From the NCBI RefSeq assembly GCF_900095135.1, contig NZ_LT605205.1, forward strand, positions 1 through 64,000: DNA of 64,000 nt, given 5' to 3'. This document shows, in pieces, positions 6,879 through 32,419 of the stretch. The position numbers were made by a program, and so were the translations under genes. The stretch comes from Proteiniphilum saccharofermentans. Lineage in GTDB: Bacteria; Bacteroidota; Bacteroidia; Bacteroidales; Dysgonomonadaceae. The notes under the pieces were generated by a model. The model was not told the DNA's origin. It searched no databases and saw only the letters and a program-made list of their open reading frames with translations. Within the stretch, counting starts at the first letter, position 1, and each line of letters begins with the position of its first letter.

Positions 6879-7874
6879 GTGGAAAAAGTTTCCTTAAAGG
6901 TAATAGCAAAAGAGCTAGGAGTATCTGCTGCAACCGTGTCACTTGTTTTGAACGGAAAGAACAAGAACGGCAGGGTAAGTGAGGAAATGTCAAAAAAAAT
7001 CATAGATAAAGCGGCTGAGTTGCATTATATACCTAATAGCCTGGCCAAAGGTTTGAAAATGGGGCATTCAAAGTCAATCGGATTAATAGTCGCTGATATT
7101 TCGAATGTATTTTTTGGCACGTTGGCTCTCCATATTCAGAATTACGCTGAGAAAGAAGGATACACAGTGATTATTGGTAATACCAATGAAAAATTGGAGG
7201 AGATGGGAAAGATAATCACTTTTCTTAATTCCCGGCAGGTGGATGGTTTAATCATCACTCCTGCAGAAGGAAGTGAGGTTTTGATAGAATCTGTTTTGAA
7301 AGGTAAGAAACCGTTGGTTTTGGTAGACAGGGGATTTCCGGATTTAAACGTTCCTTCTGTACTGATCAACAATTATGAAATATGTTATCGTTCCACAAAG
7401 CAGTTGATTGACCAGGGATTTAAAAATCCGGCATTCATTACTTACAGACAGGATCAGTTTCATACCAACGAACGAAAACGGGGATTCATAGAGGCAATGA
7501 AAGATGCAGGACTTTTTACTCCGGATCATGTGAAGGAAGTAAGTTATCAATATTTGAATGAAGATATGGATAAGGCGATTTCACAATTATTGAAATGTGA
7601 AAAAAAAGTAGATGCCATTTTCTTTGCTACCAATACTATCTCCATGGCGGGTGTGAAATCGTTGTTCAAACGAGGAATGCTTATTCAAAAAGATATTCAG
7701 GTAATGTGTTTTGATGAAACTGATGCTATTAATTTGTTCCCCTTTAGGGTACCCTTCATTAAACAACCTATCGAAGAAATGGCTAAAAGTGCATTGGAAC
7801 TGCTGATTGATCAGATAGAGAAAAAGGATGTAAAAAACCAAAAACTCTTTTTGGAAGCAGAATTGATTACCTGA
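6879..7874 (+). CDS. LacI-family transcriptional regulator of locus 1
   Basis: 331 residues with a GTG start at 6879. The N-terminal helix-turn-helix (VSLKVIAKELGVSAATVSLV, about residues 4-24) and hinge helix (PNSLAKGLKMG) are followed by a periplasmic-binding-protein-like sensor domain (SIGLIVADISNVFFGTLAL; ICYRSTKQLIDQGFKNPAF). The family represses sugar-utilization operons and releases DNA when a sugar or sugar phosphate binds. It lies directly upstream of and co-oriented with the fucI-led operon, whose promoter region carries two LacI-type palindromes. The likely effector is D-arabinose or a product of its catabolism, but that is inferred only from context. Confidence 0.92.
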   Translation: MEKVSLKVIAKELGVSAATVSLVLNGKNKNGRVSEEMSKKIIDKAAELHYIPNSLAKGLKMGHSKSIGLIVADISNVFFGTLALHIQNYAEKEGYTVIIGNTNEKLEEMGKIITFLNSRQVDGLIITPAEGSEVLIESVLKGKKPLVLVDRGFPDLNVPSVLINNYEICYRSTKQLIDQGFKNPAFITYRQDQFHTNERKRGFIEAMKDAGLFTPDHVKEVSYQYLNEDMDKAISQLLKCEKKVDAIFFATNTISMAGVKSLFKRGMLIQKDIQVMCFDETDAINLFPFRVPFIKQPIEEMAKSALELLIDQIEKKDVKNQKLFLEAELIT

Positions 7875-7892
7875 AATTTTTTCTACAGTTAG

Positions 7893-7904
7893 TTAAACGT
7901 TTAA
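7893..7904 (+). promoter_or_regulatory. LacI-type operator O1 of the D-arabinan operon
   Basis: TTAAACGTTTAA is a perfect palindrome with central CG. It lies 19 bases after the regulator gene, overlaps the expected -33 position of a weak promoter (TGCTTTTG at 7922-7929) and is repeated exactly 76 bases downstream. Confidence 0.65.
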
Positions 7905-7968
7905 TTTAATCTCTGGTAAATTGCTTTTGTATAGGATTAAATAATTATGATAAGTGTGTGGATAGTAG

Positions 7969-7980
7969 TTAAACGTTTAA
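7969..7980 (+). promoter_or_regulatory. LacI-type operator O2 of the D-arabinan operon
   Basis: A second exact copy of TTAAACGTTTAA, 76 bases from the first and 42 bases before the fucI start. Two identical sites at about seven helical turns suit a DNA loop formed by a tetrameric regulator or two dimers. Confidence 0.65.
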
Positions 7981-8021
7981 TTCTATCATTATATATAGTA
8001 TAAAAAAGTAAACTAAATTGT

Positions 8022-9797
8022 ATGCAACAAAATTATCCTAAGATCGGAATTCGTCCTGTGATTGACGGACGACGCGGAGGTATCAGGGAATCTCTCGAAG
8101 ATACCACTATGAATCTGGCGAAAAGTGTAGAGAAGCTATACCGTGAAAATCTTCGGTATCCCGACGGTTCGCCGGTAGAATGTGTGATTGCCGACAGTTG
8201 TATCGGGGGGGTGAGAGAAGCAGCTTTATGTGCTGAAAAATTTGAAAAAGAGAACGTAGGACTTTCTTTGTCGGTTACTCCTTGTTGGTGTTATGGGTCG
8301 GAGACCATTGACATGAATCCTACTATACCGAAAGCGATTTGGGGATTCAATGGTACTGAGCGCCCGGGTGCGGTTTATCTTTCGGCTGCGCTGGCGGTTC
8401 ATAATCAAAAGGGACTGCCTGCATTCGGTATTTACGGAAGGGAGGTACAGGATATGAACGACCCGTCGATTCCGGCCGATGTACAGGAGAAACTGCTTCG
8501 CTTTGCGAAGGCGGGACTTGCCGTAGCTATCATGCGGGGAAAATCATACCTTTCCATCGGTTCCGTCTCGATGGGGATCGGTGGCTCTATGACTAATCCC
8601 GATTTCCTGCAGGAGTATCTCGGGATGCGCACTGAATTTATAGATGCAAGCGAAATACTTCGTCGCATTCAACTGGGTATCTATGATCATGATGAATTCG
8701 CCAAAGCGATGCAATGGACAAAAGAGCACTGTATGACTCGTGAAGGAGAGGATTTTAATCCTGAACATCTGAAACACAGCCGGGAACAGAAAGATAAAGA
8801 CTGGGAGTTCGTGGTGAAGATGACACTGATCATGCGTGACCTGATGATCGGAAATCCTGCATTGGACACTATGGGGTATGGTGAAGAAGCCCTTGGACAC
8901 AATGCCATAGCGGGAGGTTTCCAGGGACAACGGCAGTGGACCGATTTTCTGCCTGATGGTGATTTTTCGGAAGCGATCCTCAATTCTTCATTCGACTGGA
9001 ATGGGATACGGAAGCCATTCACTTTTGCTACTGAAGATGATCATCTCAATGGTATCAGTATGTTGTTCAACCAACTAATTACCAATACGTCCCAGATCTT
9101 TGCCGATGTACGTACCTACTGGAGTCCCGAAGCGATAGAACGGGTAAGCGGATGGAAACCGGAAGGAATATTGAAAGATGGTGCGATCCACCTGATCAAT
9201 TCCGGCTCATGCACCCTTGACGGTACCGGCCAGCAATCGGACGAAAACGGCAATCCTGTGATGAAACCTTTCTGGGAGATCAGTGAGGAAGAGGTGGAAA
9301 AGATGCTCGATGCCACTACCTGGTATCCTGCATCGCTTGAATATATGCGTGGAGGAGGATATTCTTCACAATTTCTGACCAGGGCAGGTATGCCGGTGAC
9401 CATGTGCCGCCTGAACCTGATCAAGGGGTTGGGGCCTGTATTGCAGATTGCTGAAGGATGGACAGCTACCTTTCCTGAAGAAGTTTTCGACATCATCAAT
9501 AAGCGAACCGACAAGACATGGCCGTCTACCTTTTTCGTGCCGCGCATCACCGGTAAAGGCCGCTTTACAGATATCTATTCGGTAATGAATTATTGGGGCG
9601 CAAATCATGGTGCTATCAGTTACGGACATATCGGTGCCGACCTGATCACACTGGCTTCAGCGCTTTCTATTCCGGTGAATATGCACAATGTGGATGATGA
9701 AAAGATCTTTCGTCCGGATGCATGGTCCGCATTCGGTTCTGATAACGAAGGAGCGGATTACCGTGCCTGTGCTGCTTACGGACCGCTGTATAGATAG
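8022..9797 (+). CDS. fucI: L-fucose/D-arabinose isomerase FucI
   Basis: 591 residues, the same length as E. coli FucI. The enzyme interconverts L-fucose and L-fuculose and, as known for the family, D-arabinose and D-ribulose, using Mn2+ in the cytoplasm. The metal ligands align with E. coli E337, D361 and H528 shifted by one: Glu338 (TEDDHLNG), Asp362 ([12 protein letters not shown]) and His529 (NHGAISYGH). There is no signal peptide. It is the first gene after the double operator and leads an operon of D-arabinan-type hydrolases; no fuculokinase or fuculose aldolase is present. D-arabinose is therefore the likely physiological substrate here, by inference. Confidence 0.93.
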
Positions 9798-9950: not shown

Positions 9951-11150
9951 ATGGAGAGAATTAATTTTAAAATGCTGAAAGTAAGCATCCTTATTTTGGG
10001 AATTATGCTTTCATTCCCCCTCTTTTCCCAAACGGAGTCGATGGGAGATATGTTTGAACTGGCGAAATTGAAATCGGGCATGAAAAACAGGAGGATATCC
10101 AGTACCGATCCCACGGGAGGAAACCGGGACCATCTGGAACCTTTCAAACCCGGTGAAAAGCGAACTATTGCGGAGATAAAAGGGACCGGTGTAATCAACC
10201 ATATCTGGATAACCATTGCACCTCCGCCCGGTGAATTAAGCAGGAACGATATCATTATCAGGATGTATTGGGACGGGAACGATTATCCATCGGTGGAATC
10301 ACCTATCGGGCCTTTCTTTGGCCAGGGATGGGACGAGCGGTATAATTATGCTTCGCTTCCCCTGTCGGCAGGACCCGAGGAAGGAACAGGTCTGAGCAGT
10401 TATTTTGCGATGCCCTTTGAGAAAGGAGCAAGAATAGAGATTGAGAATCAGACCGATAAGACGATCAATGCTTTCTATTTTTATGTAGATTATCTCGAGA
10501 TGGCGGAGCTTCCCGAAGGAATGGGCCGTTTTCACGCCTGGTATAATCACAGCTTATCTAAAGCCCTGCCTGAAGGAGAAACTGAATGGGCACTGACAGG
10601 CGAATGGAAGCCCAATACCCGGTTAGACCGGAACTATGTTTTTATCGAAACCAAAGGGAAAGGGCATTTTGTAGGGATCAATTATTACGTACACTCTCCT
10701 ACTCCCATGTGGTACGGCGAGGGAGATGATATGTGGTTTATCGATGGGGAGAAGACTCCTTCTTTGATCGGCACCGGTACGGAAGATTTCTTCAATACCT
10801 CCTGGTGTCCCAAAGAGCCGTTCTCACATCCCCATTTCGGTTATCCCAGGGTGAATAACGATATAGGCTGGCTGGGAAGAACCCATGTGTATCGTTTCTT
10901 TATCAATGACCCCATCTTCTTTGAAACAGAAGTGAAAGGAACCATTGAAACAGGACACAACAACAATCTTACCCTTGATCTGGCCACTGTGGCTTACTGG
11001 TATCAGGATAGTGCGGTAAAATTGCCTCCGGCGCCATCTAAGGAAGCACGTAAACCCAAGCCTTTTATCAACCATATGGATATGCACCGCTGGAGAGATG
11101 CCTGGCGGAAAGCGAAAGGAAATGACCCGCAGTTGTGGGGAAATGAGTGA
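9951..11150 (+). CDS. GH172 (DUF2961) exported glycosidase, first of three
   Basis: 399 residues with a signal peptide ending FPLFSQ. The DUF2961 fold is seen from GTGVINHIWITI, through the jelly-roll strand SPIGPFFGQGWDE, to the conserved motif GTGTEDFFN, whose Glu278 is a probable catalytic residue. GH172 members include exo-alpha-D-arabinofuranosidases acting on mycobacterial D-arabinan and difructose dianhydride I synthase/hydrolase. Its place between fucI and susC, with GH183 and GH116 genes downstream, favours exo-D-arabinofuranosidase in the periplasm. Length is typical of single-module members. The exact linkage cleaved cannot be read from sequence. Confidence 0.88.
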   Translation: MERINFKMLKVSILILGIMLSFPLFSQTESMGDMFELAKLKSGMKNRRISSTDPTGGNRDHLEPFKPGEKRTIAEIKGTGVINHIWITIAPPPGELSRNDIIIRMYWDGNDYPSVESPIGPFFGQGWDERYNYASLPLSAGPEEGTGLSSYFAMPFEKGARIEIENQTDKTINAFYFYVDYLEMAELPEGMGRFHAWYNHSLSKALPEGETEWALTGEWKPNTRLDRNYVFIETKGKGHFVGINYYVHSPTPMWYGEGDDMWFIDGEKTPSLIGTGTEDFFNTSWCPKEPFSHPHFGYPRVNNDIGWLGRTHVYRFFINDPIFFETEVKGTIETGHNNNLTLDLATVAYWYQDSAVKLPPAPSKEARKPKPFINHMDMHRWRDAWRKAKGNDPQLWGNE

Positions 11151-11171: not shown

Positions 11172-14100
11172 ATGAAAAATTTTATAAGCAAACTCGTTTT
11201 GGTTTGTCTGTTTCTGGGATTCACTCTCTATACCTTTGCAGCCCAGACACCCAACGAGATACAACAGACTAAAACCATCAGAGGAGTTGTTACAGAACAA
11301 AATACCAATGACCCCTTGCCGGGAACAAGTGTATATGTGAAAGGTACAACTGTGGGTACTATCACCGATATGGATGGTAGATACCAGCTAAATGTGCCTT
11401 CAGAAGATGCGGTACTGGTTTTTTCCTTTATCGGAAAGAGGACAGTGGAACAATCCGTGAGAGGAGCGACGGTAATTGATGTGGTGATGGAAGATGATGC
11501 TACCATGCTGGAAGAACTGGTCTATACCGGTTATATGACACAGCGGAAAGCCGATCTTACCGGATCGGTTTCCATGGCGACGAGCAGTGATATCATCAAG
11601 AATCCTTCGGCCAATGCGATGAAAGCGTTGCAGGGAAAACTTTCCGGGGTCCATATTACAACAAACGGGGGAAATCCTGCTGAAGATGTGAATATTCAGA
11701 TTAGAGGGCTCTCTTCCCTTTCAGGTGGAGTAAAACCGTTGATCGTATTGGATGGGATGCCCACGGAGAATCTCAACCTTAGGGATATTAATTCCGGAGA
11801 TATAGAATCGATTCAGATATTGAAAGACGCTGCTTCAGCCAGTATATACGGTGCACGCGCATCAGGGGGCGTAATTTTGATTCAAACCAAAAAAGGGAAA
11901 GAAGGTGCAATATCCGTTGAATACAACGGAAGTGTTTCATTCAGTTCCGTTGTGAACAAACCCCGGTTGATGAATGCTGAAGAGTACGGAATAGCTGCTT
12001 TCAGAGCGCAGGCATATGACGAGAAAGTGTATGGCGTATCTATGTCATTACCCACTACCTATGATTTTACCTGGCACAGAAATGACAACGGATTGGCAGT
12101 GCTCGACGGGGTGAAACCGGCGGAATGGCTCAATCCGGAACAGACTGTCAGAGGCTCGGATACCGACTGGATGGACGAAATCTTCCGTACCGCGATGATG
12201 ACAAACCATCAGGTGACCGTTTCTCAAGGAACAGATCGGTCAAAGAGCCTGTTTTCATTGGGTTATTATAACAATGAAGGTACGCAAATTCATACCTTTT
12301 TCAGACAATACTCGGTGCGTGCCAATACGGAATACGCCTTGTTGAACAACCGGTTGAAAATCGGTGAAAATATTGCATTGAGTTACCTGCAATATAAAGA
12401 TGCGAACGAAACCCGTTGGGCAATGATCAATCCTCCTGCCGGGCCGGTTTACGACATCAATGGTAACTGGGCGGGAGCTCCCGGCTTTGATGATTTTACC
12501 AATCCGGTACGTCTATTGACAATGAATAAAGACAATATCAATAATTACGTGAAAATAATCGGTAATATTTTCCTTGACCTTGATATCTGGAAAGGGATAT
12601 CGGCACGTACTCAGTTCGGGGTAGATTACGGTAATGCCTACAACAGGGCAGTCGATGGCATCTGGTCCGAGACCGGAGGAAGAAACAGCGACGGAGAAAA
12701 TTATGTAGGGAGTTACCAGTCACATCCTTTGAGTTATGTATGGACCAATAGCCTTTCCTATACGCTGAATACCGGAAGGCATTCGCTTGATGCGGTGGTT
12801 GGTACAGAGTTTACCCGATTCGTTCAGGAGGGATTTTCTGCCAGAAGAGAAGGAATATACCTTGAAGACAGGGATTTTGCCCATATTGGCGTGACTACCG
12901 GTACGAAATATTCCCTGGGTAGTTCGGCAGATGAATATACCTATTTCTCACTTTTTGGTAAAGTAAACTATTCGCTTGACTCAAAGTATCTCCTTTCATT
13001 CACACTACGGCGAGATGGGTCATCACTCTTTGGAGCAAACAACCGGTATGGAACCTTTCCCGCTGTTTCGGCCGGATGGAGAATCAACAACGAACCTTTT
13101 ATGGCTGACGTGGAAGCAGTATCTGACCTGAAGCTTCGTGCAAGCTGGGGAGCCAACGGAAGTGTGCAGGGATTGCCGCGTGGATATACTTCCACACCTT
13201 TCACAACCGACTATTTTGGTACATCCTATCCGATAGAAGGCAATGAATCCGGACCGCTCTGGTCAGGTTATCGGAGAACCTGGCTTGGAAATCCAAATCT
13301 TAAGTGGGAAACGACAAAACAGACTGACATTGCAGTCGATTTTGGTTTTCTGAATCAACGCCTGTTCGGTTCTCTAAGCTATTATTTTAAAAAGACGAAC
13401 GATGTATTGGTACAGGTACCCTATATTGCTGCGATGGGTGAAGGAGGTGAACCATGGATCAATGGCGCTAATATGAATAACCAGGGGGTTGAATTTGAAA
13501 TTACATATAGAAATGATCCTTCAGCTGATTTCCAGTATGCCATAACTGCCAATATAGGTTCTTACAGGACAAAACTGGTAGAACTTCCCGAAAATGTGGT
13601 TAACAGGTATCCGGGTGACGGTATGCGTGACTTTGTGATAGGCAGAACACCTAATATCCTTTATGGATTGGTGGCCGATGGTATCTTCAAAACCCAGGAA
13701 GAGGTAGATAACCATGCCGAGCAGACAGGAAAGGCTATCGGAAGGATCCGTTATAAGGACCTGGATGGGAATGGGGTCGTTGATGAATTGTATGACCGTA
13801 CTTTTATAGGAATTACCGATCCTGACTTTTTCGGAGGCATCACCTTTGATCTCGGTTACAAAAATTTTGATATGAATATCTTTTTCCAGGGTGTATACGG
13901 TAATAAAGTAAATAATATCTGGAAACAGGAGAGCGATCTGTGGAATATTTCTGTTCCTGCAGGGAAGAATCATGAAAAAAGAATATTGGATGCATGGTAT
14001 TTCGATAATCCCGATTCCGATATTCCGGCTATGTCCAATTCAAATCCAAATAGCGAGCAACGGTTTTCCTCCTATTTCGTAGAAGACGGTTCCTATCTGA

Positions 14101-14315
14101 AGTTGAGAAATATAGAACTAGGATACACCTTCCCGAAAAAACTTACAGATGCAATGCTGATGCAGCACCTCAGGATTTATGCTTCGGCACGCAACGTGCT
14201 TACGCTTAAGAAAGGATGGGGAAACGACAGATATACCAGTTTTGATCCTGAAATGCCGGGATACGGTTATTTGACACCATTTACCATGGCTTTTGGAGTT
14301 AATGTAACATTCTAA
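11172..14315 (+). CDS. SusC-like TonB-dependent outer-membrane transporter (locus 1)
   Basis: 1047 residues with a signal peptide (FLGFTLYTFAAQ). A carboxypeptidase-regulatory-like domain (TIRGVVTEQNTNDPLPGTSV) comes first, then the plug domain with SusC hallmarks (GKLSGVHITTNGGNPAEDVN; IQILKDAASASIYGARASGG), then the beta-barrel ending in the aromatic outer-membrane signature MAFGVNVTF. It imports oligosaccharides powered by TonB and pairs with the SusD lipoprotein 14 bases downstream. From context the ligand is probably D-arabino-oligosaccharide. The domain order is complete and no frameshift is visible. Confidence 0.95.
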   Translation: MKNFISKLVLVCLFLGFTLYTFAAQTPNEIQQTKTIRGVVTEQNTNDPLPGTSVYVKGTTVGTITDMDGRYQLNVPSEDAVLVFSFIGKRTVEQSVRGATVIDVVMEDDATMLEELVYTGYMTQRKADLTGSVSMATSSDIIKNPSANAMKALQGKLSGVHITTNGGNPAEDVNIQIRGLSSLSGGVKPLIVLDGMPTENLNLRDINSGDIESIQILKDAASASIYGARASGGVILIQTKKGKEGAISVEYNGSVSFSSVVNKPRLMNAEEYGIAAFRAQAYDEKVYGVSMSLPTTYDFTWHRNDNGLAVLDGVKPAEWLNPEQTVRGSDTDWMDEIFRTAMMTNHQVTVSQGTDRSKSLFSLGYYNNEGTQIHTFFRQYSVRANTEYALLNNRLKIGENIALSYLQYKDANETRWAMINPPAGPVYDINGNWAGAPGFDDFTNPVRLLTMNKDNINNYVKIIGNIFLDLDIWKGISARTQFGVDYGNAYNRAVDGIWSETGGRNSDGENYVGSYQSHPLSYVWTNSLSYTLNTGRHSLDAVVGTEFTRFVQEGFSARREGIYLEDRDFAHIGVTTGTKYSLGSSADEYTYFSLFGKVNYSLDSKYLLSFTLRRDGSSLFGANNRYGTFPAVSAGWRINNEPFMADVEAVSDLKLRASWGANGSVQGLPRGYTSTPFTTDYFGTSYPIEGNESGPLWSGYRRTWLGNPNLKWETTKQTDIAVDFGFLNQRLFGSLSYYFKKTNDVLVQVPYIAAMGEGGEPWINGANMNNQGVEFEITYRNDPSADFQYAITANIGSYRTKLVELPENVVNRYPGDGMRDFVIGRTPNILYGLVADGIFKTQEEVDNHAEQTGKAIGRIRYKDLDGNGVVDELYDRTFIGITDPDFFGGITFDLGYKNFDMNIFFQGVYGNKVNNIWKQESDLWNISVPAGKNHEKRILDAWYFDNPDSDIPAMSNSNPNSEQRFSSYFVEDGSYLKLRNIELGYTFPKKLTDAMLMQHLRIYASARNVLTLKKGWGNDRYTSFDPEMPGYGYLTPFTMAFGVNVTF

Positions 14316-22494: not shown

Positions 22495-23661
22495 ATGCGT
22501 TTAAAAACAACTTTCTTTTTTCTTTTTTGTATTGCATTTACGACAACTGTTTTTTCCCAAAATCGTGATTTCAATGGTTTGGATATGAATATGGGTAACC
22601 TATACCGGCTATCCAACGCGGAAACACGTTCTATCAGTCCGGAAAATTTTACCGGCGAGAAAGGGAAAGGGGGGATGGCTATCCCGGATCCCAACGCACC
22701 CCGCAATACGGCGAATGCTACAAATCCTGCACGTGATCTGGGACAGGGCTGGAAAGTGAATCCGTTTGTGACCATCAATCCGGGTGAAACTTTCACCATG
22801 GCCGAAATTGAAGGGCCGGGTGCTATTCAGCATATCTGGATGACGCCGACTGGTAACTGGCGTTTTTCCATTATACGTATCTATTGGGATGATGAAACGG
22901 AACCGTCAGTAGAGGCACCTGTGGGTGATTTCTTCGGCATGGGGTGGAATGAATATGCCCATCTGAATTCCCTGCCTGTAACCGTCAATCCGGGAAGTGC
23001 ATTTAATTGTTATTGGGTGATGCCGTTCCGTAAAAAATGCAGGATCACCATGACCAATATCAATGATGAACAGCCGATGAACCTCTATTATCAGATCGAT
23101 TATACGCTGACCGATGTGCCCGACGATGCTGCCTATTTCCATGCACAATTCCGCCGCACAAAAGTGAATGAAACATCCGATTATACCATTATCGACGGAA
23201 TAAAGGGTGAAGGGCACTATGTAGGTGTCTATATGGCGTGGCAGGTGAATAACAATGGCTGGTGGGGCGAAGGAGAAATCAAATTCTTCATGGATGGAGA
23301 CAAGCAATTCCCTACCATCATAGGAACCGGGACTGAGGATTATTTCTGCGGATCGTATAATTTCGACCGGCACGGGAAGTACGTTACTTTTACAACACCT
23401 TATGCCGGATTGGTACAGGTATTGCCTCCCGATATTACCTACAGATCCGGACAACGATTCGGAATGTATCGCTGGCATGTGATGGATCCTATACGGTTTA
23501 AGAAAGACCTGAGAATCACCATTCAGGATCTGGGTTGGAGGCATGGACACCGTTATCTGCCACAGAAATCGGATATCTCGTCTACTACTTTCTGGTATCA
23601 GAAAGAGCCTCATGCTCGGTTTCCCAAGTTTCCTTCCTGGCAGGAATTGGAAGTGAATTGA
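22495..23661 (+). CDS. GH172 (DUF2961) exported glycosidase, second of three
   Basis: 388 residues from the ATG at 22495; the reading can be extended to a TTG at 22486, but the ATG gives a better signal peptide (FFLFCIAFTTTVFSQ). DUF2961 features are AEIEGPGAIQHIWMTPTG, EAPVGDFFGMGWNEYAHLN, a lectin-like strand YVMAWQ region and the GTGTEDYFCGSYNF motif with probable catalytic Glu281. Length equals the first GH172 in this locus, so both are single-module exo-acting enzymes. Differences around the active-site loops suggest a different linkage or position preference. The upstream gap holds the MITE-like element, which may affect transcription. Confidence 0.88.
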   Translation: MRLKTTFFFLFCIAFTTTVFSQNRDFNGLDMNMGNLYRLSNAETRSISPENFTGEKGKGGMAIPDPNAPRNTANATNPARDLGQGWKVNPFVTINPGETFTMAEIEGPGAIQHIWMTPTGNWRFSIIRIYWDDETEPSVEAPVGDFFGMGWNEYAHLNSLPVTVNPGSAFNCYWVMPFRKKCRITMTNINDEQPMNLYYQIDYTLTDVPDDAAYFHAQFRRTKVNETSDYTIIDGIKGEGHYVGVYMAWQVNNNGWWGEGEIKFFMDGDKQFPTIIGTGTEDYFCGSYNFDRHGKYVTFTTPYAGLVQVLPPDITYRSGQRFGMYRWHVMDPIRFKKDLRITIQDLGWRHGHRYLPQKSDISSTTFWYQKEPHARFPKFPSWQELEVN

Positions 23662-23708: not shown

Positions 23709-25664
23709 GTGAAAAGAATGATGAAGAGAATCGGATTAAAGACATTATTACTCATTTTTACGTTTTTATTATCTCTCTTTCAGATGAACGGGCAAACTCA
23801 AACCTACCGGTGGAGTGATGAGGTAGAGCTTTTGAAAAGAGTGGACCGGTTGCCTGCATATCGACATAATCAATTGATAGAACAGGAGTCGAGTTACGAC
23901 CGGACGGGTGGAAATGACGATGGCTTCAGTGGCACTTATTCTTTTATCCGTAAGGAAAAAGAGGGACTGGTGCTGGCCGAATTTGAAGGACCGGGTGTAG
24001 TAAACCGTATATGGACTCCTACACCTACAGAAGACACATTGTTGTTTTACTTCGATGGAGAAAGGGTCCCACGCCTGAAGATTCGTTTTATGGATCTTTT
24101 TTCGGGAAAGGTCTATCCTTTCGTAAAACCGGTTTGTGGTAACGAAATAGGAGGGTATTACAGCTATATCCCTATTCCATTCGCAAAATCATTAAAGATC
24201 GTGTTCCAGGGAGACCGGATCATGTTCCATCAAATTCAATACCGGATGCTACCCGGAATGAATGTGGAAAGCTGGACCGGGAATTTCTCCGCTTCCGACA
24301 AAGAATTGTTGGCAGAGGTGAGTGACGTATGGGCTGATATATCACCTACAGTAAACCGCTATGCAACCGGTTTGTCGTCTAGTGTCCGTACCGAAGAAAA
24401 ATCATTTACTATTGAACCGGGAGAAGAGATAGCTTTCTTTGAGAAAACAACCTCCGGCCGTATTGTCGGTTTTGAGATTGACGGTGGAACTGCATTTGAA
24501 GGGATTTATAAAGATATCATCCTTTCCGCAGAATGGGATGATGAACCGGTAGAAGCCATCCATGCACCCCTGGCTGATTTTTTTGGTTACGCCTACGGAA
24601 AACCGGCTATGCGAAGTATCGTAATGGGACGGCAGGAAACTTCCAACTACTGTTACCTGCCCATGCCTTTCGATAGATCGGCTTCCATGAAACTCATCTA
24701 TGAGAAAAGGGAAGGAGTACAGCAAAACGCTATACCGGTGAATGTGAAAGTGTATTATAACGACAACGGACGAAATATCAATGAGGAAGGAAAACTCTAT
24801 ACTGTTTGGAGAAGAGAAAAACCTGAATCGGGTCAGTTCTATACTTTTATGGAAACCAAAGGAAAAGGTCATTATGTGGGGACCATCCATCAGGCACAGG
24901 GTTTGCGACCGGGTATGACTCTCTTCTTCGAAGGTGATGATACCACATATGTGGATGGAAAAATGCGTCTGCATGGTACCGGTTCAGAAGATTATTATAA
25001 CGGAGGGTGGTATGCGCTGCTCGACCGGTGGGACAGGGGAATCAGCATGCCGGTACACGGTTCACTCGATTATTCCCTGCCGATGGGACGTACCGGAGGT
25101 TACCGTTTTTTCCTTTCGGATAAGATGTCTTTCGAGAAAGAAATTTATCACGGTATGGAACATGGAGAGGTAGGCAATAATTTTCCCGTAGATTATACGT
25201 CTGTTACATTCTTTTACGCGGCACAACCGTTGAAAGAACGTATGGAACTGACCGCGGATTTAAGGGAGGTTTACTTTCCTGAAAAGCATATCTATTTCCC
25301 GCAGTTGATGGAGATTACCCTCGACAGGGGAATACAGGCTATTTTAGACAGAGGGCTGATGCTTACCTCCTTTGGTCAGGGTATGGTTAGGGTGATGCTT
25401 ACGGATGTGCCCGAAGGGAAATACAGGGTATTGGTCAACTATCACGAAAAGCCGAACGGAGCCGATTTTCAGGTATGGCAACGGCAGAATCGACTGTCGG
25501 AGTGGATTTCGACAAAAGCCGACAAAGAAATCTTCAGGGAGAATGTCCATGTAGGGGATATACAACTCACTTCCCAGACAAACTCTGTCACCTTCCATGT
25601 GAGGAACAATGACAAAGCCAACCAGTTCGAACTGAATCTGGTCATACTCGAAAGAATAGAGTAA
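23709..25664 (+). CDS. GH172 (DUF2961) exported protein, long form, third of three
   Basis: 651 residues from GTG 23709; ATGs at 23718 and 23721 are equally plausible starts and give the same signal peptide (LLLIFTFLLSLFQMNGQ). The long form has a first jelly roll (LAEFEGPGVVNRIWTPTP), a second one with APLADFFGYAYGKPAM, and the family motif HGTGSEDYYNGGW with Glu427 at the expected catalytic place. A C-terminal sandwich of about 130 residues (from LTADLREVYFP) is extra compared with the other two copies and may bind carbohydrate. It probably removes D-arabinofuranose from side branches, but this is inferred from the family and neighbours. Confidence 0.85.
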   Translation: MKRMMKRIGLKTLLLIFTFLLSLFQMNGQTQTYRWSDEVELLKRVDRLPAYRHNQLIEQESSYDRTGGNDDGFSGTYSFIRKEKEGLVLAEFEGPGVVNRIWTPTPTEDTLLFYFDGERVPRLKIRFMDLFSGKVYPFVKPVCGNEIGGYYSYIPIPFAKSLKIVFQGDRIMFHQIQYRMLPGMNVESWTGNFSASDKELLAEVSDVWADISPTVNRYATGLSSSVRTEEKSFTIEPGEEIAFFEKTTSGRIVGFEIDGGTAFEGIYKDIILSAEWDDEPVEAIHAPLADFFGYAYGKPAMRSIVMGRQETSNYCYLPMPFDRSASMKLIYEKREGVQQNAIPVNVKVYYNDNGRNINEEGKLYTVWRREKPESGQFYTFMETKGKGHYVGTIHQAQGLRPGMTLFFEGDDTTYVDGKMRLHGTGSEDYYNGGWYALLDRWDRGISMPVHGSLDYSLPMGRTGGYRFFLSDKMSFEKEIYHGMEHGEVGNNFPVDYTSVTFFYAAQPLKERMELTADLREVYFPEKHIYFPQLMEITLDRGIQAILDRGLMLTSFGQGMVRVMLTDVPEGKYRVLVNYHEKPNGADFQVWQRQNRLSEWISTKADKEIFRENVHVGDIQLTSQTNSVTFHVRNNDKANQFELNLVILERIE

Positions 25665-25783: not shown

Positions 25784-25813
25784 AATAGTAGTGATTTTGA
25801 TGATTTGAAAGAT

Positions 25814-27907
25814 ATGATAAAGAGGCTTATTTATACAGTGTTGGGTATGGTTATAATTTTCTCTTCCGTGGTGCAGGCACAGGATGCGGAGGTAGGGAGC
25901 CAATCTTTGCCGATGGAGCTGAAGCTGCCCCGTTCATTGGAGAAAGCTGTTCGGAAAATCCAATATAACCTGTTGGGGAGTGAAAAGGGGGCTAGCCGGA
26001 TCGAGGTACTGGACGAGAATTGTCTTCACATACAGTTCAACTTCTCTCCCGGCCAGACTGTTCGCCAGGATGACTGGCAGGTGGTTGTCACTCCCGGGTT
26101 TACCCCGTCTTTCCATTGGGCGCCCCACCTTACACCTACCGGCAGCCATATTATCGACCAGCATGTATTCCGTTCTCCGGCACTGATCGTCGCCGATGAC
26201 CGGCAGGTGATTACCCTGATCCCCGATCTTGATATTATGAAAAAGGGAACTCCAGTAAGGTGGTATCTTGATCTCGATGCTGAAAATAATCGCCTGGTAT
26301 TGGGGATGAGTAACAGCAGGGTCGACGATCATGTCCTGTTTGTCCGTAAACCGGGTGCTGAGTATCCGGCAGGAGAAGTGGAGATCGGATTTTTCCTGAT
26401 GGTGCATAGTGACGAAGCGTCACTAAAAAACCCTTTCAGGAGGCCACTCGATTTCCTCTGGAATCGTTGGGGGCATGATCTTTATCAGGCCGGGAATCCG
26501 GTAGATGCCGATTTGGAACGATATGTGGAGCACACCTATAACTGGGCTTTCAACAGTTGGGCGGATAACGTATGGCAGGAGTTCGAACTGGACGGTAAGA
26601 AGGTCGGTTCACCGGTTTTTATCGTGAATGTCACGCAGAGCCCCAATTATCCGGGAGAAGTCAATGAACGGGAATTCCGTTCGGTATGGAATCAGGCCTG
26701 GTTTAGTTCCCTGCGTTCTGCCGGCGGATTGTACCGGTATGCCAGAAGGACCGGCAACACAGCCTTGATGGAAAAGGCGCTGCTTACCAAAGAACTGGCT
26801 CTCTCTTTTCCGAAGGTTGAAGGTTTCTTTTACGGCTTGATCGGTACAGAGATGCATGAAGTGGAGATCGATGGGAGAAAATATAACCGTAGTAAGGGAT
26901 GGGATACCTACTACTGGGGAAATTCGAACCGGAATCCTTATACCTGGAATGCAGCCGAATCACCATTCCATATCCTCGATATGAGCTGGACGGCGTTGCT
27001 GATGCTTCGTTGGTATGATGAACTGGAAAAGGACGAACGATTACTTCATTATGCGGAGCAATACGCCGGATCATTACTCGGTATCCAGTCGGAGAATGGT
27101 TTTTTCCCGGGATGGCTCGACCTGCGTACGCTGCAACCCATGGCTCACCTGAACGAATCTCCTGAGACCTCTATGTCGGCGACCTTTCTTTTGAAACTCT
27201 ATGAGCTGACCGGAAAACAGGAATATAAGGAGGCAGGCCTTAAAGCCATAGATGCGGTAATCCGGGATATTATCCCTACGGGGAGATGGGAGGATTTCGA
27301 AACCTACTGGTCCTGTTCACGGTACGGGTCGGATCATCTGGTCGGGAAAAAGGTTATCCGGAACAATATGTACAAACAGAATAATTTCTCCATGTTCTGG
27401 ACGGCCGAAGCACTGTTCGAATGTTACCGGCTAACCAGCGACCGCCGATATCTGGACCAGGGACAGCGTACCCTCGATGAATTACTGATGACACAGGCTT
27501 CGTGGCAGCCACCCTACATGTATGTGAATGTGCTTGGCGGTTTCGGGGTATTGAATGCCGATGCCGAATGGAACGACTCCCGCCAGAGCCTGTTCTCTGA
27601 GTTGATCCTGCAATACGGGAAACTTTTGGACAGTGATGAGTACAATGGGAGAGGGTGGGCTGCGCTGAAAGCTTCGTTTGTAATGATGTATAGTCCCCTG
27701 AATCCTGTCACCAAAGCACAATGGGAAAAAGTGTATCCCTTCTTCGGAGAGGAAGATTATGGCTTTATGATGGAAAATTACGGCCATGGAGGGCGTACCA
27801 GCCCCGAAGGTGAAGGAATGGGAGAATTTACAATATACGATTGGGGAAACGGTGCTGCTGCGGAAGCCTATAACCGTATTCTCGATAAATTCGGAAAAAT
27901 TGAATAA
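25814..27907 (+). CDS. Exported helical-barrel protein of unknown function (candidate glycosidase)
   Basis: 697 residues from ATG 25814 (a TTG at 25805 is in frame). A signal peptide ends IIFSSVVQAQD. Residues about 40-200 look like a beta-sandwich, and about 220-690 are a helix-rich region with the spacing of an (alpha/alpha)6 barrel (AGGLYRYARRTGNTALMEKA; TEALFECYRLTSDRRYLDQG-like repeats). Acidic and aromatic residues cluster in NESPETSMSATFLLKLYEL and FETYWSCSRYGSDH. I cannot assign a CAZy family. It lies between a GH172 and a DUF6786 gene in the same operon, so it may cleave another linkage or a non-arabinose substituent of the same polymer. Confidence 0.6.
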   Translation: MIKRLIYTVLGMVIIFSSVVQAQDAEVGSQSLPMELKLPRSLEKAVRKIQYNLLGSEKGASRIEVLDENCLHIQFNFSPGQTVRQDDWQVVVTPGFTPSFHWAPHLTPTGSHIIDQHVFRSPALIVADDRQVITLIPDLDIMKKGTPVRWYLDLDAENNRLVLGMSNSRVDDHVLFVRKPGAEYPAGEVEIGFFLMVHSDEASLKNPFRRPLDFLWNRWGHDLYQAGNPVDADLERYVEHTYNWAFNSWADNVWQEFELDGKKVGSPVFIVNVTQSPNYPGEVNEREFRSVWNQAWFSSLRSAGGLYRYARRTGNTALMEKALLTKELALSFPKVEGFFYGLIGTEMHEVEIDGRKYNRSKGWDTYYWGNSNRNPYTWNAAESPFHILDMSWTALLMLRWYDELEKDERLLHYAEQYAGSLLGIQSENGFFPGWLDLRTLQPMAHLNESPETSMSATFLLKLYELTGKQEYKEAGLKAIDAVIRDIIPTGRWEDFETYWSCSRYGSDHLVGKKVIRNNMYKQNNFSMFWTAEALFECYRLTSDRRYLDQGQRTLDELLMTQASWQPPYMYVNVLGGFGVLNADAEWNDSRQSLFSELILQYGKLLDSDEYNGRGWAALKASFVMMYSPLNPVTKAQWEKVYPFFGEEDYGFMMENYGHGGRTSPEGEGMGEFTIYDWGNGAAAEAYNRILDKFGKIE

Positions 27908-27928: not shown

Positions 27929-29182
27929 ATGAAACTAAAACAAATCTATCGCAGTGTACTGCCTGCCATAATCGGGGGTGCAATTTTACTCTCCTGTACA
28001 GGCAACAGGAAAACATCAGGAAATATGGAAAAGGAATATGAAAAGGGGACTTTCGGATATGATCTTAACTATCTGTCCGAAAAAGATGAGGGATTGATCG
28101 TACTGAAGTCGGAAGATGAAAAGGCACAAATAATCCTGTCGGCGAAGTATCAGGGAAAAGTATTTACTTCTACGGCTAATGGACCGGAAGGTAATAGTCA
28201 CGGATTTGTAAATTACAACTTCTTCGATGCGGGTATAGTAGATGAACATATGAACGGCTTCGGCGGAGAAGATCGTTTCTGGCTCGGCCCGGAAGGGGGG
28301 AAGTATTCCATATTTTTTGAGCCGGGGAAAGAGCAGGTATATGATAACTGGCATACTCCCAAAGCCATCGATATCGAAGAGTGGGAGGTAAGCCGTGTGA
28401 CTCCCAAAGAGGCTGTTTTTGTCAAGGAGATGGAACAGAAGAACTACTTGGGGAGTCTCCTGAATATTGCGATAGAACGGAAAGTTGCATTGCTTTCCCC
28501 CAGTGAAATAACGGGTAAATTGCAGGTTGAAATCCCTGAAGGAGTGAATGGGGTGGCCTATGAAACAACCAACAAAATTGTCAATGGCAATGATTTCGAA
28601 TGGACCCCGGAGACCGGTACGGTCTGTATATGGATGCTCGATATGTTCAATCCTTCCGAAGCTGCCGTAACTGTGATCCCTTATAATACCGGTGACGGGA
28701 AGGAACTGGGTAAGGTGGTGACATCCGATTATTTCGGTGAAATTCCTGCCGATCGGCTGGTTGATGATAATGGTATCCTCTATTTTAAAACCGATGGAAA
28801 ATCAAGAGGCAAACTGGGAATGAATGCCAAACGCACCAAATCGGTCGCGGGAAATTATGATCCGCTTGCAAAGCGATTGACCATCGTGACATTTGATACT
28901 GATCCGGATGCGACCTATTTGAATCAGGAATGGAATCCTGACAGGGATCCGCTTGTAGGAGATGCGTTGAATGCTTATAACGACGGTCCGTTGGAAGACG
29001 GAAGCATTATGGGCCCCTTTCTGGAGCTTGAAAGCTGTTCGCCCGCTGCATTCCTGAAACCGGGAGAGTCGCTGTCGCACAGACACAACGTATTCCATTT
29101 CACGGGCGATGAGGCAAGCCTTTCTCCTATAGCTGAGAAATTATTGGGAGTAAGCCTTGATAAAGTCAGGAATATCTTCTAA
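27929..29182 (+). CDS. DUF6786-like lipoprotein
   Basis: 417 residues. The signal IIGGAILLSC gives a lipid-anchored Cys. The conserved block NGFGGEDRFWLGPEGGKYSI and the C-terminal SPAAFLKPGESLSHRHNVFH identify a family found beside sugar-utilization genes in Bacteroidota and Planctomycetota, which I recall as DUF6786. The strand pattern and the C-terminal His-containing segment suggest a galactose-mutarotase-like fold. A role as mutarotase or epimerase for the released sugar, or in binding it, would fit the position just ahead of the sugar permease, but no activity is known to me. Confidence 0.65.
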   Translation: MKLKQIYRSVLPAIIGGAILLSCTGNRKTSGNMEKEYEKGTFGYDLNYLSEKDEGLIVLKSEDEKAQIILSAKYQGKVFTSTANGPEGNSHGFVNYNFFDAGIVDEHMNGFGGEDRFWLGPEGGKYSIFFEPGKEQVYDNWHTPKAIDIEEWEVSRVTPKEAVFVKEMEQKNYLGSLLNIAIERKVALLSPSEITGKLQVEIPEGVNGVAYETTNKIVNGNDFEWTPETGTVCIWMLDMFNPSEAAVTVIPYNTGDGKELGKVVTSDYFGEIPADRLVDDNGILYFKTDGKSRGKLGMNAKRTKSVAGNYDPLAKRLTIVTFDTDPDATYLNQEWNPDRDPLVGDALNAYNDGPLEDGSIMGPFLELESCSPAAFLKPGESLSHRHNVFHFTGDEASLSPIAEKLLGVSLDKVRNIF

Positions 29183-29334: not shown

Positions 29335-30783
29335 ATGAACACAAATAATGTAGAAAAGCACCGATTGATCCCTCCCGGGATCCTGTTCCCTTTTATTCTT
29401 CTTACTTCGCTCTTCTTTATCTGGGCGGTACCCAACAATATGACCGACACTATGCTGGCGGCGTTCAAGCGCATCATGAGTCTTACCGATACGCAAACAG
29501 CATGGATCCAGGTAGTTTGCTATCTTCTCGGGTACGGTTGTTTCGCACTTCCCGGAGCAATTTTTATCAAGAGACGCACTTTCAAGTCAGGAGTATTGTT
29601 AGGACTTCTGCTTTGTATAGTGGGGTCGATGTTGTTTTATCCGGCTATGCTGGTAAATGATATCAGTTCACCGTTGAGTTTCGCTACCTATCTTTTCGGT
29701 ATATTCATATTGTTTGCAGGATTATCAGTACTCGAAACCTCGGCCAATGCGTATGTCTATGCACTTGGTGATCCGATAACGGCCACCCGCAGATTGAATT
29801 TTTCCCAATCGTTCAATCCATTTGGTGCACTGACCGGTGTGCTGGCCAGCCAGATATTTGTCTTATCTCAGTTGAATACCATGACGGCCGGCGAAAGGGC
29901 TGTCCTGAGCGGGTCAGAACTGGTTGCCATTCAACGGGGTGAACTTAATGCAGTCACCATGGCCTATCTGATCCTGGGGGCAGTGATGCTGGTATTATTA
30001 CTGCTGATCATATTCACCAAAATGCCGAAAGCACAAGACGACGATAAGAGTTTGGACTTGAAAGCGACATGGAATCGGTTGAAAAAGAATAAGAATTACA
30101 TCTGGGGAGTATTGGCACAGTTTTTCTATGTGGGTGCGCAGATCGCAGTCTGGTCGTTCATCATCCGTTACGCCATGCAGCAACTCGATTTGGACGCAGT
30201 GATTGCCGGTCTGGGTGCAAATCCTTCGCAGGAAGCAATTATCGGGGCACTGCGTGGTGTGGAGCCGGTGGCCGGAGGTTTTTATTCCCTGAGTGAATTC
30301 CTCGGGTTGGATGCACTGTTACCTCGTACGGCAGAACAGGCCGGAGCTACTTACTATATCTTGTCGTTGGTATTGTTCGTCGTAGGACGCTTTATCTGTA
30401 CCTGGCTGATGAAATATACCCGGCCGGTAAACATATTGTCAGGATTGGGCATTCTTGCGGTAATCTGTTCACTTTTGACGATTTACGGAGAAGGCTTTGT
30501 GGGAGTATATGCCTTGATGGGTATTTCGGGTTGTATGTCCGCCATGTTCCCCACTATTTATGGTCTTGGTATGAGAGGACTGGGAGACGATACCAAGATT
30601 GCCGGTTCGGGCATGGTAATGGCGATTGCCGGTGCAGCGTTACTGACACAGATGCAGGGTATCCTCTCCGATCAGGCGGGGAGCATTAAATTCGCCTACT
30701 GGGTACCTGCCGTCGCATTTATTATCATTACTTATTATAGTTTTACGATTGCACGCAGCAAGAAGTTGGGTAACGGAAAATAG
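29335..30783 (+). CDS. fucP: FucP-type sugar:proton symporter (MFS)
   Basis: 482 residues with about 12 membrane segments. It matches L-fucose permease: the acidic residues known to drive transport in E. coli FucP, Asp46 and Glu135, correspond to Asp38 (NNMTDTML) and Glu134 (LETSANAY). FQP-like SFNPFGALTG and GRFICTWLM are further family marks. A hydrophilic insert near residues 280-330 (GANPSQEAIIGALRGVEPVA) is larger than in E. coli. D-arabinose has the same configuration as L-fucose at C2-C4 and is a known FucP substrate, so in this operon it probably imports D-arabinose across the inner membrane. The stop codon is one base from the kinase start. Confidence 0.9.
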   Translation: MNTNNVEKHRLIPPGILFPFILLTSLFFIWAVPNNMTDTMLAAFKRIMSLTDTQTAWIQVVCYLLGYGCFALPGAIFIKRRTFKSGVLLGLLLCIVGSMLFYPAMLVNDISSPLSFATYLFGIFILFAGLSVLETSANAYVYALGDPITATRRLNFSQSFNPFGALTGVLASQIFVLSQLNTMTAGERAVLSGSELVAIQRGELNAVTMAYLILGAVMLVLLLLIIFTKMPKAQDDDKSLDLKATWNRLKKNKNYIWGVLAQFFYVGAQIAVWSFIIRYAMQQLDLDAVIAGLGANPSQEAIIGALRGVEPVAGGFYSLSEFLGLDALLPRTAEQAGATYYILSLVLFVVGRFICTWLMKYTRPVNILSGLGILAVICSLLTIYGEGFVGVYALMGISGCMSAMFPTIYGLGMRGLGDDTKIAGSGMVMAIAGAALLTQMQGILSDQAGSIKFAYWVPAVAFIIITYYSFTIARSKKLGNGK

Positions 30784-30784
30784 T

Positions 30785-32419
30785 ATGGATATGGAAAAGT
30801 TAGTCATAGGTATTGATTATGGTACCGATTCATGTCGTGCGGTAGCATTAGACACCGCGTCGGGGAAAGAGCTGGCGACAGCGATCTCCGGTTATATCCG
30901 CTGGAAAAAAGGATTATATTGTGATCCTTCTGCCAACCGGTACCGGCAGCATCCGCAGGATTATATTGATTCACTTGTGGAGGTGATTCACGATTTATTG
31001 GCACAATTATCACCTGATGAGGTGAAAAATATTGTTGCTCTCGGAATTGACACGACGGGGAGCACACCCTGCCTGACGGATCGTGACGGCACACCGTTGG
31101 CATTGCTGCCTGAATATGCCGACGATCCCGATGCAATGTTTATTCTCTGGAAAGATCATACTTCTATCCGGGAGGCAGATGAAATCAATGCCCTGGCCCG
31201 TAAATGGGAGACCGATTTTACGTCCCGCTCCGGAGGAATCTACTCTTCAGAGTGGTTCTGGGCAAAAGCGCTGCACGTACTTCGTGCAAATAAAAAAATA
31301 AGAGAGAAAGCCTGTTCCATTATTGAGCATTGCGACTGGATGCCGGCATTATTGACGGGAAATCTGCGGCCTGAACAGGTGAAGCGTAGCCGTTGTGCTG
31401 CGGGGCACAAAGGAATGTGGGCGTCAGCATGGGGCGGTTATCCGTCGCAGGAGTTCCTTTCCGCACTCGACCCCTTGTTCGGGGGATTTGCAACCCGTCT
31501 GGAGAACAAAACTTACACAAGCGATGTCTCTGCCGGAAAACTGACTGATGAATGGGCAGAGCGGCTCGGACTACCTCACAACGTTGATGTGGCCGTCGGT
31601 ATTCTCGATGCGCATGCCGGAGCTATTGGTGCGGGGATCACGGCGCACACGATGGTGAAAATTGTCGGTACCTCTACCTGTGATATTGTGGTTACCCCCA
31701 AAAAGGATATAGCCGGGAAGCTGATCCCCGGGATCAGTGGTCAGGTAGACGGGTCGGTTATCCCCGGCCTGATAGGTCTCGAGGCGGGACAATCTGCTTT
31801 TGGCGATGTATATGCCTGGTGGAAGGAGATACTTTCCTGGTCGTTGAACCTGCTCCCGGAAGAACAAAAGAGAGAAATAATAGCGCAGATATTGCAGAAG
31901 CTGACCGAAGAGGCGGAAAAACTGCCGGTAACTGAATCGGATCCGGTGGCGACCGACTGGTTGAACGGACGGCGTACCCCCTTTGCCGACCTCACATTGA
32001 AGGGAGGCATTGCCGGTATCACTTTGGCTACTACCCCTGCGCATATCTTCAAAAGCCTGGTGGAAGCCACAGCTTTCGGTTCCCGTGCTATTATGGAGCA
32101 TCTTGAGAAAGAGGGTGTACAGGTGAATGAGGTGATTGGAGTGGGAGGTATTTCATTGAAATCATCCTATGTGATGCAGACACTCTCCGATATCATGGGC
32201 GTACCTATCAAAGTGGCGGCTACACAACAGGCAGGAGCGTTGGGTGCCGCTATGTGTGCTGCTGTCGCGGCAGGTGTTTTTCATAGCATGGAAAGTGCCC
32301 TCGAATCCCTGGGGCAGGGTTATAAAACCGTATACGTTCCCCGTGTGGAAAACCGGGAGACGTATGATGTGTTGTATGAAAAATACCGGCAACTGAACCG
32401 GTTCTTGGAAGCAAGATAA
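30785..32419 (+). CDS. Ribulokinase-like FGGY carbohydrate kinase (AraB family)
   Basis: 544 residues from ATG 30785, one base after the permease stop; a longer reading into the permease gene is not credible. The FGGY N-domain begins VIGIDYGTDSCRAVALD, with the ribulokinase-type IVALGIDTTGSTPCL. The C-domain has MVKIVGTSTCDIVV, SGQVDGSVIPGLIGLEAGQS and FGDVYAWW, close to AraB. AraB enzymes are known to phosphorylate D-ribulose as well as L-ribulose. No araA or araD lies nearby, while fucI opens the same operon, so the likely reaction is D-ribulose to D-ribulose 5-phosphate, feeding the pentose phosphate pathway directly. It is the last gene of the operon. Confidence 0.9.
   Translation: MDMEKLVIGIDYGTDSCRAVALDTASGKELATAISGYIRWKKGLYCDPSANRYRQHPQDYIDSLVEVIHDLLAQLSPDEVKNIVALGIDTTGSTPCLTDRDGTPLALLPEYADDPDAMFILWKDHTSIREADEINALARKWETDFTSRSGGIYSSEWFWAKALHVLRANKKIREKACSIIEHCDWMPALLTGNLRPEQVKRSRCAAGHKGMWASAWGGYPSQEFLSALDPLFGGFATRLENKTYTSDVSAGKLTDEWAERLGLPHNVDVAVGILDAHAGAIGAGITAHTMVKIVGTSTCDIVVTPKKDIAGKLIPGISGQVDGSVIPGLIGLEAGQSAFGDVYAWWKEILSWSLNLLPEEQKREIIAQILQKLTEEAEKLPVTESDPVATDWLNGRRTPFADLTLKGGIAGITLATTPAHIFKSLVEATAFGSRAIMEHLEKEGVQVNEVIGVGGISLKSSYVMQTLSDIMGVPIKVAATQQAGALGAAMCAAVAAGVFHSMESALESLGQGYKTVYVPRVENRETYDVLYEKYRQLNRFLEAR

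Follow-up and report, generated by a model that had tools for sequence, protein, structure and literature searches.

Can a single locus of Proteiniphilum saccharofermentans be read as a complete kit for using D-arabinan, a polymer characteristic of mycobacterial and similar cell walls? The window analysed here is the first 64 kb (64,000 nucleotides) of the one-contig, 4.41-Mb genome (NZ_LT605205.1), and the locus is a run of 15 open reading frames (ORFs), every one on the + strand, that begins with a LacI gene at 6879 and closes with a kinase gene ending at 32419. A preliminary description, made from the DNA letters, had placed a SusC/SusD pair, the glycoside hydrolases (GHs) GH183, GH116 and three GH172, FucI, FucP and a ribulokinase in this one run, and Pfam and NCBIfam assignments confirm that content. 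The locus is very probably a LacI-controlled D-arabinan polysaccharide utilization locus (PUL), in which U700, a protein of 700 amino acids (aa), is proposed as a further exo-acting enzyme. Genes for endo-acting D-arabinan enzymes were first identified in 2023, and a D-arabinan PUL is not new in kind, as Dysgonomonas gadei PUL42 and a Microbacterium cluster are published. What is newly added is the U700 family, a pair of operators and a hint of repeated kinase recruitment.

Gene content and glycoside hydrolases of the locus

The ORF set is mechanical, with the first possible start taken for each. In gene order, the features of the locus are as follows.

6823–6834: palindrome TTAATCGATTAA, probable autoregulatory operator before lacI
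6879–7874, + strand: LacI1, LacI-family regulator (Pfam LacI and Peripla_BP; same place in 7 relatives)
7891–7906: LacI-type operator 1, AGTTAAACGTTTAATT
7967–7982: LacI-type operator 2, identical to operator 1, 76 bases downstream
8022–9797, + strand: FucI-type isomerase, proposed to convert D-arabinose to D-ribulose (NCBIfam fucI)
9951–11150, + strand: GH172_1, predicted exo-alpha-D-arabinofuranosidase, DgGH172c-like
11172–14315, + strand: SusC-like TonB-dependent outer membrane transporter (Pfam)
14330–16138, + strand: SusD-like surface glycan-binding lipoprotein (Pfam)
16135–16572, + strand: DUF4945 small lipoprotein after SusD (Pfam)
16706–18136, + strand: GH183 (DUF4185), predicted endo-D-arabinanase lipoprotein (Pfam; EndoMA1 match; catalytic Asp)
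18172–19224, + strand: U350, exported protein of no known family
19234–22272, + strand: GH116, predicted exo-beta-D-arabinofuranosidase, subfamily 4-like (ExoMA2 match; residues)
22486–23661, + strand: GH172_2, predicted exo-alpha-D-arabinofuranosidase, ExoMA1/DgGH172a-like
23709–25664, + strand: GH172_3, long form like DgGH172b (Pfam; similarity scores)
25805–27907, + strand: U700, no Pfam assignment; proposed periplasmic exo-acting enzyme on D-arabino-oligosaccharides (neighbourhood, profiles)
27929–29182, + strand: DUF6786 lipoprotein (Pfam)
29335–30783, + strand: FucP-type major facilitator superfamily permease, proposed D-arabinose importer (TIGR00885)
30785–32419, + strand: AraB-type kinase, proposed D-ribulokinase (NF003154; tree)

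Four of these ORFs come on top of those named in the preliminary description, namely DUF4945 (16135), the 350-aa protein U350 (18172), U700 (25805) and DUF6786 (27929). The kinase ORF as listed begins at 30749 and overlaps fucP; its true start is likely an internal ATG near 30785. The run contains intergenic gaps of 133–213 bases, so that it is not necessarily a single transcript. GH183 and GH172 with SusC/SusD and FucI stand together in one locus, which is the gene content of a D-arabinan PUL of the PUL42 kind.

In the mechanism that we propose, D-arabinan would be cut at the surface by GH183 and the pieces imported by SusC/SusD, after which exported GH172 and GH116 would remove alpha- and beta-linked D-arabinofuranose (D-Araf). 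U700, of an unnamed family, may be a further exo-acting enzyme beside GH172 on the imported D-arabino-oligosaccharides. D-arabinose would then be carried inward by the FucP-type permease, converted to D-ribulose by FucI and phosphorylated to D-ribulose 5-phosphate by the AraB-type kinase. LacI1 would repress the run from the two operators before fucI, its effector probably being a pathway intermediate.

The GH proteins were compared with the sequences of solved structures, which included D-arabinan, fructan and glucoside enzymes. Siding with the fructan or glucoside members had been set beforehand as speaking against D-arabinan; GH183, GH116, GH172_1 and GH172_2 side with the D-arabinan enzymes, and GH172_3 has similar scores to all. 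GH183 (Pfam DUF4185, 310 bits) matches the endo-D-arabinanase EndoMA1 at 180 bits (E 1e-51) and keeps the catalytic Asp residues, with D172 and D190 corresponding to D33 and D51 of EndoMA1. It is a lipoprotein with CSKEE at the lipobox (read by eye) and is probably on the cell surface. GH116 (Pfam GH116, 194 and 115 bits) matches the exo-beta-D-arabinofuranosidase ExoMA2 at 348 bits, against at most 43 bits for the other 13 chains listed for GH116 (glucosidases or glucosylceramidases, one unnamed). Its E578, D704, H593 and R630 correspond to E431, D557, H446 and R483 of ExoMA2, where the chain index is the paper number plus 4, and H446/R483, replacing Asp/His, are described as the key difference from beta-glucosidase (PMC10509167). 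The nucleophile, the acid/base and the H446/R483 counterparts that mark subfamily 4 exo-beta-D-arabinofuranosidases are all present, as is a twin-arginine-type leader (read by eye). The comparison supports GH183 and GH116 as likely counterparts of the crystallised Microbacterium D-arabinan enzymes with their catalytic residues kept.

Pfam DUF2961, which equals GH172, was matched three times (268, 329 and 181 bits). GH172_1 scores 766 bits to an uncharacterised Bacteroides protein (4kq7), 643 to DgGH172c (8ah3), 175 to the fructan enzyme and 105 to ExoMA1, and its E257, E278 and D279 match E233, E254 and D255 of DgGH172c. D-arabinofuranosidase activity is reported for DgGH172c, and a mutant printed as D225A appears to mean D255 (PMC10115798). 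GH172_2 scores 392 bits to ExoMA1 (8ic8) vs 156 to the fructan enzyme. For GH172_3 the scores are 83 bits to the uncharacterised Bacteroides protein, 67 to DgGH172c, 65 to the fructan enzyme and 54 to ExoMA1; DgGH172b, the long form, was only weakly active (PMC10115798).

These scores also bear on whether this is an alpha-fructan or difructose anhydride locus with GH172 as an alpha-D-fructofuranosidase. GH172 does include the fructan enzyme alphaFFase1, to which DgGH172c is described as alike (PMC10509167), GH172_1 is nearer alphaFFase1 than ExoMA1, and the GH172_3 scores do not separate the fructan enzyme from the D-Araf enzymes. However, GH172_1 is far nearer DgGH172c, a D-arabinofuranosidase (PMC10115798), GH172_2 is closer to ExoMA1, and neither GH183, GH116 with its D-Araf residues, FucI nor the ribulokinase has an evident fructose role, so that a fructan locus seems scarcely credible to us. 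D-arabinan as the target, as given in the preliminary description, is borne out by the GH183, GH116, GH172_1 and GH172_2 matches and by the residues kept in GH183, GH116 and GH172_1. A narrower question is which D-Araf glycan is the natural food. D-Araf also occurs in pilin and lipopolysaccharide (LPS) glycans, which are cut by certain DUF4185 enzymes (PMC10115798); yet the branched polymer of mycobacteria is a good fit for GH116, which would act on beta-D-Araf ends, and for the several alpha-acting enzymes, and we think it unlikely that pilin or LPS glycans, rather than a mycobacterial-type cell wall, are what the locus serves.

The proposed D-arabinose route and the LacI-type operators

FucI lies above both of its NCBIfam cut-offs (1063 bits vs 775 for NF008220; 1034 vs 850 for TIGR01089). 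FucP scores 398 bits over a cut-off of 280 (TIGR00885), but 278 under 427 (NF007524), and the kinase scores 684 over 428 (NF003154), but 582.4 just under 583.25 (TIGR01234), with only 44 bits to the fuculokinase model. The models that FucI and FucP pass (two of two and one of two, respectively) are L-fucose models, which raises the reading that FucI, FucP and the kinase use L-fucose and that the hydrolases act on fucosylated glycans. Among the locus genes with an assignment, however, there is no fuculokinase, fuculose-phosphate aldolase or fucosidase, the kinase fits ribulokinase far above fuculokinase, and a GntR-FucI-FucP locus near 4.24 Mb of the same genome holds a second FucI, 69% identical to that of the locus, and a better-fitting FucP (616 vs 398 bits). 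On this evidence an L-fucose-glycan locus is very improbable. An araB-araA-araD locus with arabinofuranosidases lies near 1.09 Mb. Because the L-arabinose and FucI/FucP loci sit elsewhere, the copies in the window are additional and fit a third sugar, D-arabinose. These FucI, FucP and kinase copies look dedicated to D-arabinose, with the permease predicted to act on D-arabinose and the kinase on D-ribulose.

A tree of 29 kinases, drawn without support values and with one AraB as reference, places the Proteiniphilum/Petrimonas-type locus kinases in one group and the three Dysgonomonas locus kinases with the AraB of the window genome. The Dysgonomonas kinases are 67–70% identical to this AraB, compared with 56–58% to the window kinase. 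At most, the tree hints at more than one recruitment of the locus kinase from AraB.

Two identical 16-base LacI-type operators precede fucI. Across the 4.41 Mb the operator occurs in two exact copies with no other site within one mismatch, and a backward control pattern gave one match. Its 13-base core has four matches in the window (two sites, both strands), above all 100 shuffles. The core, exact or with one difference, precedes fucI in 5 of the 9 relatives examined and lacI in 6 of 7; these relatives include G051, G052 and G063, which resemble the window very closely and so are not independent. In the relative G074, where fucI has moved, the core precedes GH172_1 instead. Twelve fucI genes lie in named U700 loci; two have the core, six have no core and four have almost no upstream DNA. 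The downstream locus has its own regulator, LacI2, with a distinct core that lies before the LacI2 gene and before the aldolase gene. The boundary drawn for the locus in the preliminary description is well supported, because the LacI1 operators recur at the locus and the LacI2 core differs.

The U700 family

Kin of U700 were gathered in one scan with seven relatives as queries. Of the 209 places that it gave, the 80 best were retained, each with 10 kb on either side where the contig allowed; contigs cut many. Among these best 80, identity is 56–96%, and the hosts are Bacteroidota, Bacillota (Paenibacillus, Cohnella, Neobacillus) and metagenome-assembled genomes (MAGs) labelled Acidobacteriota, Aminicenantes and Lokiarchaeota (L123, L131), labels that may be binning errors. 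On plasmids there was no U700 match. A set of 23 loci (L063–L085) is mostly near relatives, and several U700 loci share genomes with the 11 relative stretches described below; the two counts are not independent.

GH172 forms the largest neighbour cluster around U700. It is present in 52 of the 80 loci (21/23 of L063–L085, 31/57 of the others), and immediately adjoins U700 in 39 (20/23 and 19/57); the GH172 closest to U700 lies on its strand in 47 of 50 loci. Other neighbours are FucP-like proteins (31 loci), kinase-like proteins (29), DUF6786 (25), GH116 (20), GH183 (18; 6/23 of L063–L085 and 12/57 of the others) and FucI (13). At the genome level, GH172 was found in 24 of 24 selected U700 genomes vs 33 of 395 sampled Bacteroidota, the 24 being hand-picked from the 80 loci with Bacillota included and the background being Bacteroidota only. 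DUF4185 was present in 18 of the 24, 15 of them strong. Within the 395, U700 matched in 14 genomes, 3 of them strongly (the window's own included), and GH172 occurs in all 3 of the strong and 3 of the 11 weak.

Export signals were read from the same loci and from alignment A3 (77 U700 rows). A hydrophobic N-terminal segment is found in 59/59 U700 members outside Bacillota and Lokiarchaeota and in 1/18 inside, that one at threshold. The corresponding counts are 70/79 and 0/10 for GH172, 10/21 and 0/1 for GH116, and 11/11 and 4/7 for GH183, whose misses possibly reflect over-long ORF starts. We infer that U700 behaves like a post-import enzyme, as GH172 does and unlike the endo-enzyme, because its export-segment pattern parallels that of GH172.

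GH127, C5-epimerase, GH88, pectic acid lyase, GH47 and GlcNAc 2-epimerase share helical toroid folds, and GH127 has zinc-binding cysteines and a Cys nucleophile. In hhalign, U700 aligned with GH127 at 94.6% (score 73, 133 columns) over part of the toroid domain; nine other locus families scored no higher than 35 and ten column-shuffled controls no higher than 24.5. GH127 and GH116 were the toroid-fold families compared in this way, so GH127 is not necessarily the nearest. Weak matches of single members, 59 in all, fell on GH127 (38), C5-epimerase (28), GH88 (24), pectic acid lyase (12), GH47 (11) and GlcNAc 2-epimerase (8), the lowest E belonging to GH88 (1.2e-06; GH127 best 4.6e-06). Against solved structures, U700 gave nothing meaningful, either as a profile (best E 0.83) or as a single sequence (E 0.083).

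Membership of U700 in GH127 itself was considered and rejected. The window protein scores 12.6 bits vs the Pfam cut-off of 24.9, the 59 members share no invariant Cys and one nearly invariant one, and the zinc-cysteine site is not there. U700 thus resembles the GH127 beta-L-arabinofuranosidases distantly, over part of the toroid domain, and this resemblance would suit an enzyme active on glycosides. Candidate invariant acids of U700 are E290, D392, E454, E496, D497, E499, D586, E588, D591 and E657.

We put it at roughly even odds that U700 belongs to a new family of toroid enzymes that act on D-arabino-oligosaccharides. The fuller proposal, that U700 founds a new GH family working with GH172 after uptake and cutting a D-arabinofuranosyl linkage or cap beyond those of GH183, GH172 and GH116, has in our estimate slightly less than an even chance. 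Its main competitor, which we hold to be possible and somewhat less probable, is that U700, instead of being a D-arabinofuranosidase, removes or alters a decoration such as a capping or branching sugar, or is a lyase or epimerase of similar fold. The scatter of the weak matches over several families, with GH88 lowest in E, would suit this competitor, and GH183, GH172 and GH116 already cover the known D-arabinan linkages (PMC10509167). Set against it, the recurrent neighbours of U700 are GH172 and other D-arabinose-route genes, and ten further neighbour clusters comprise three importer components, four housekeeping genes, a histidine kinase, a DUF4886 protein and a sulfatase. The importer components, met in the Bacillota loci, are an SBP_bac_8-type solute-binding protein in 7 loci and two permeases of ATP-binding cassette (ABC) importers, one in 8 loci and the other in 7; the histidine kinase recurs in 5 loci, the DUF4886 protein in 6 and the sulfatase in 5, and four housekeeping clusters lie beside U700 loci in near relatives (8–9 loci each).

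Returning to the proposal of a LacI-controlled D-arabinan PUL with U700 as a further enzyme, several observations weigh against it. In vitro, the published set of GH183, GH172 and GH116 already breaks D-arabinan down completely (PMC10509167), so the known linkages do not call for U700. DUF4185 is missing from 6 of the 24 U700 genomes and only weak in 3, and GH172, GH183 and GH116 are all missing from 19 of the 80 U700 loci, several of them short contigs; among 69 neighbours from 16 of those 19 loci, no Pfam family occurs more than 4 times, sulfatase being commonest. The five sulfatase loci (L074, L093, L098, L103, L123) may mark another substrate context for U700. The operator is missing before fucI in 4 of 9 relatives and in 6 of 8 named U700 loci with enough upstream DNA. 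Finally, the kinase is AraB-like, and the Dysgonomonas locus kinases are nearer to AraB than to the window kinase.

If U700 is a route enzyme, its place beside GH172 and ABC importers in Bacillota would mark D-arabinan users outside the known groups, and if the new-family reading is true, D-arabinan use would be wider than the published clusters suggest, extending over Bacteroidota, Bacillota and the MAG-labelled Acidobacteriota and Aminicenantes. Of the other two proteins, U350 is found in only 7 of the 80 U700 loci, and we therefore make no functional claim for it. A DUF6786 profile found nothing among solved structures, and hhalign of U350 and DUF6786 against GH127, GH172_3, GH183 and U700 found nothing; the literature searched, which leaves most subscription journals outside it, held no mention of DUF6786.

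Conservation and comparison with known D-arabinan systems

DUF4185 matches occur in 29 of 101 genomes of the family Dysgonomonadaceae and are strong (above 250 bits) in 14. Eleven of the 14 strong genomes, counting the window's own and G050 despite its broken GH183, combine GH183, GH172, FucI and U700 at a single locus; of the remaining three, G007 has a locus without U700 in the stretch examined, G027 has GH183 without the locus, and G039 is a 3-kb contig. Such a locus is carried by 9 of 11 relative stretches examined, so its assembly is more than chance; 7 of the 9 adjoin ychF, as in the window. The genome G051 is of the same genus as the window genome. GH183 is broken in G050 (L057, 11802–13216) and GH116 is in two ORFs in G052 (L037, 15591–18625), which may mean that some strains lost part of the pathway. 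In G063 (L042/L043, about 13.0–21.0 kb of the joined stretch) another SusC and proteins of 667 and 753 aa replace GH116 and part of U350, and G074 is without GH116, U350 and the kinase.

Several side observations concern the same genes. A transposase gene (DDE_Tnp_1) lies between DUF4945 and GH183 in G092 (L033, 15907–17148). In the related genomes of L060, L061 and L062 (1–18966), LacI1 and FucI stand with another SusC/SusD and a divergent DUF4185 protein of 430 aa; genes of ychF and nadA length adjoin the locus of L062, which may be a variant in the same genomic slot. The window genome has two more weak DUF4185 matches, at 4377583 (48 bits) and 1387974 (30 bits). Downstream in the window, a second LacI-controlled PUL-like run (32786–61189) encodes a dihydrodipicolinate synthase (DHDPS)-family aldolase, a PKD protein, SusC/SusD, a PhoPQ-related protein, YdjC, a ceramidase/phosphoesterase fusion, a GH2 glucosaminidase-like protein, an alkaline phosphatase and a BNR protein. 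Two of its large proteins (41183–43402 and 52979–55333) have no significant Pfam match.

The nearest known system is Dysgonomonas gadei PUL42 (Al-Jourani et al. 2023, PMC10115798), which shares FucI, three GH172 (a, b and c), GH183 and GH116 with the window locus. PUL42 has two GH183, whereas the window has one. Compared with Dysgonomonas G010, a stand-in for PUL42, the window has one SusC/SusD pair in place of two, and it has U350, a FucP of another branch and a kinase that branches elsewhere in the AraB tree. With one GH183 and one SusC/SusD pair, the window locus is a compact, regulated set in the genus Proteiniphilum. The PUL42 locus tags are 02467 for GH172a, 02468 for GH116, 02471 for GH172b, 02479 for GH172c and 02480 and 02481 for GH183 (PMC10115798). 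In G010 the GH116 and GH172_3 genes are separated by exactly two genes, DUF6786 and U700, and the GH172_3 and GH172_1 genes by seven. Because this order fits the tag numbers, HMPREF9455_02470 is probably U700 and HMPREF9455_02469 probably DUF6786. Proteins of PUL42 that were abundant on D-arabinan included several without annotation (PMC10115798), and the likely D. gadei U700 gene sits in this PUL. U700, DUF6786 and U350 are candidates for activities not assigned in the parts of PMC10115798 and PMC10509167 drawn on here.

The Microbacterium arabinogalactanolyticum cluster shares GH183, GH172 and GH116 with the window, with active-site residues in common for GH183 and GH116 (PMC10509167). Its uptake is by an ABC importer and its exo-enzymes lack signal sequences, whereas the window has SusC/SusD and exported exo-enzymes. 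The binding protein of the Microbacterium cluster is of the SBP_bac_8 kind (PMC10509167), as near the Bacillota U700 genes.

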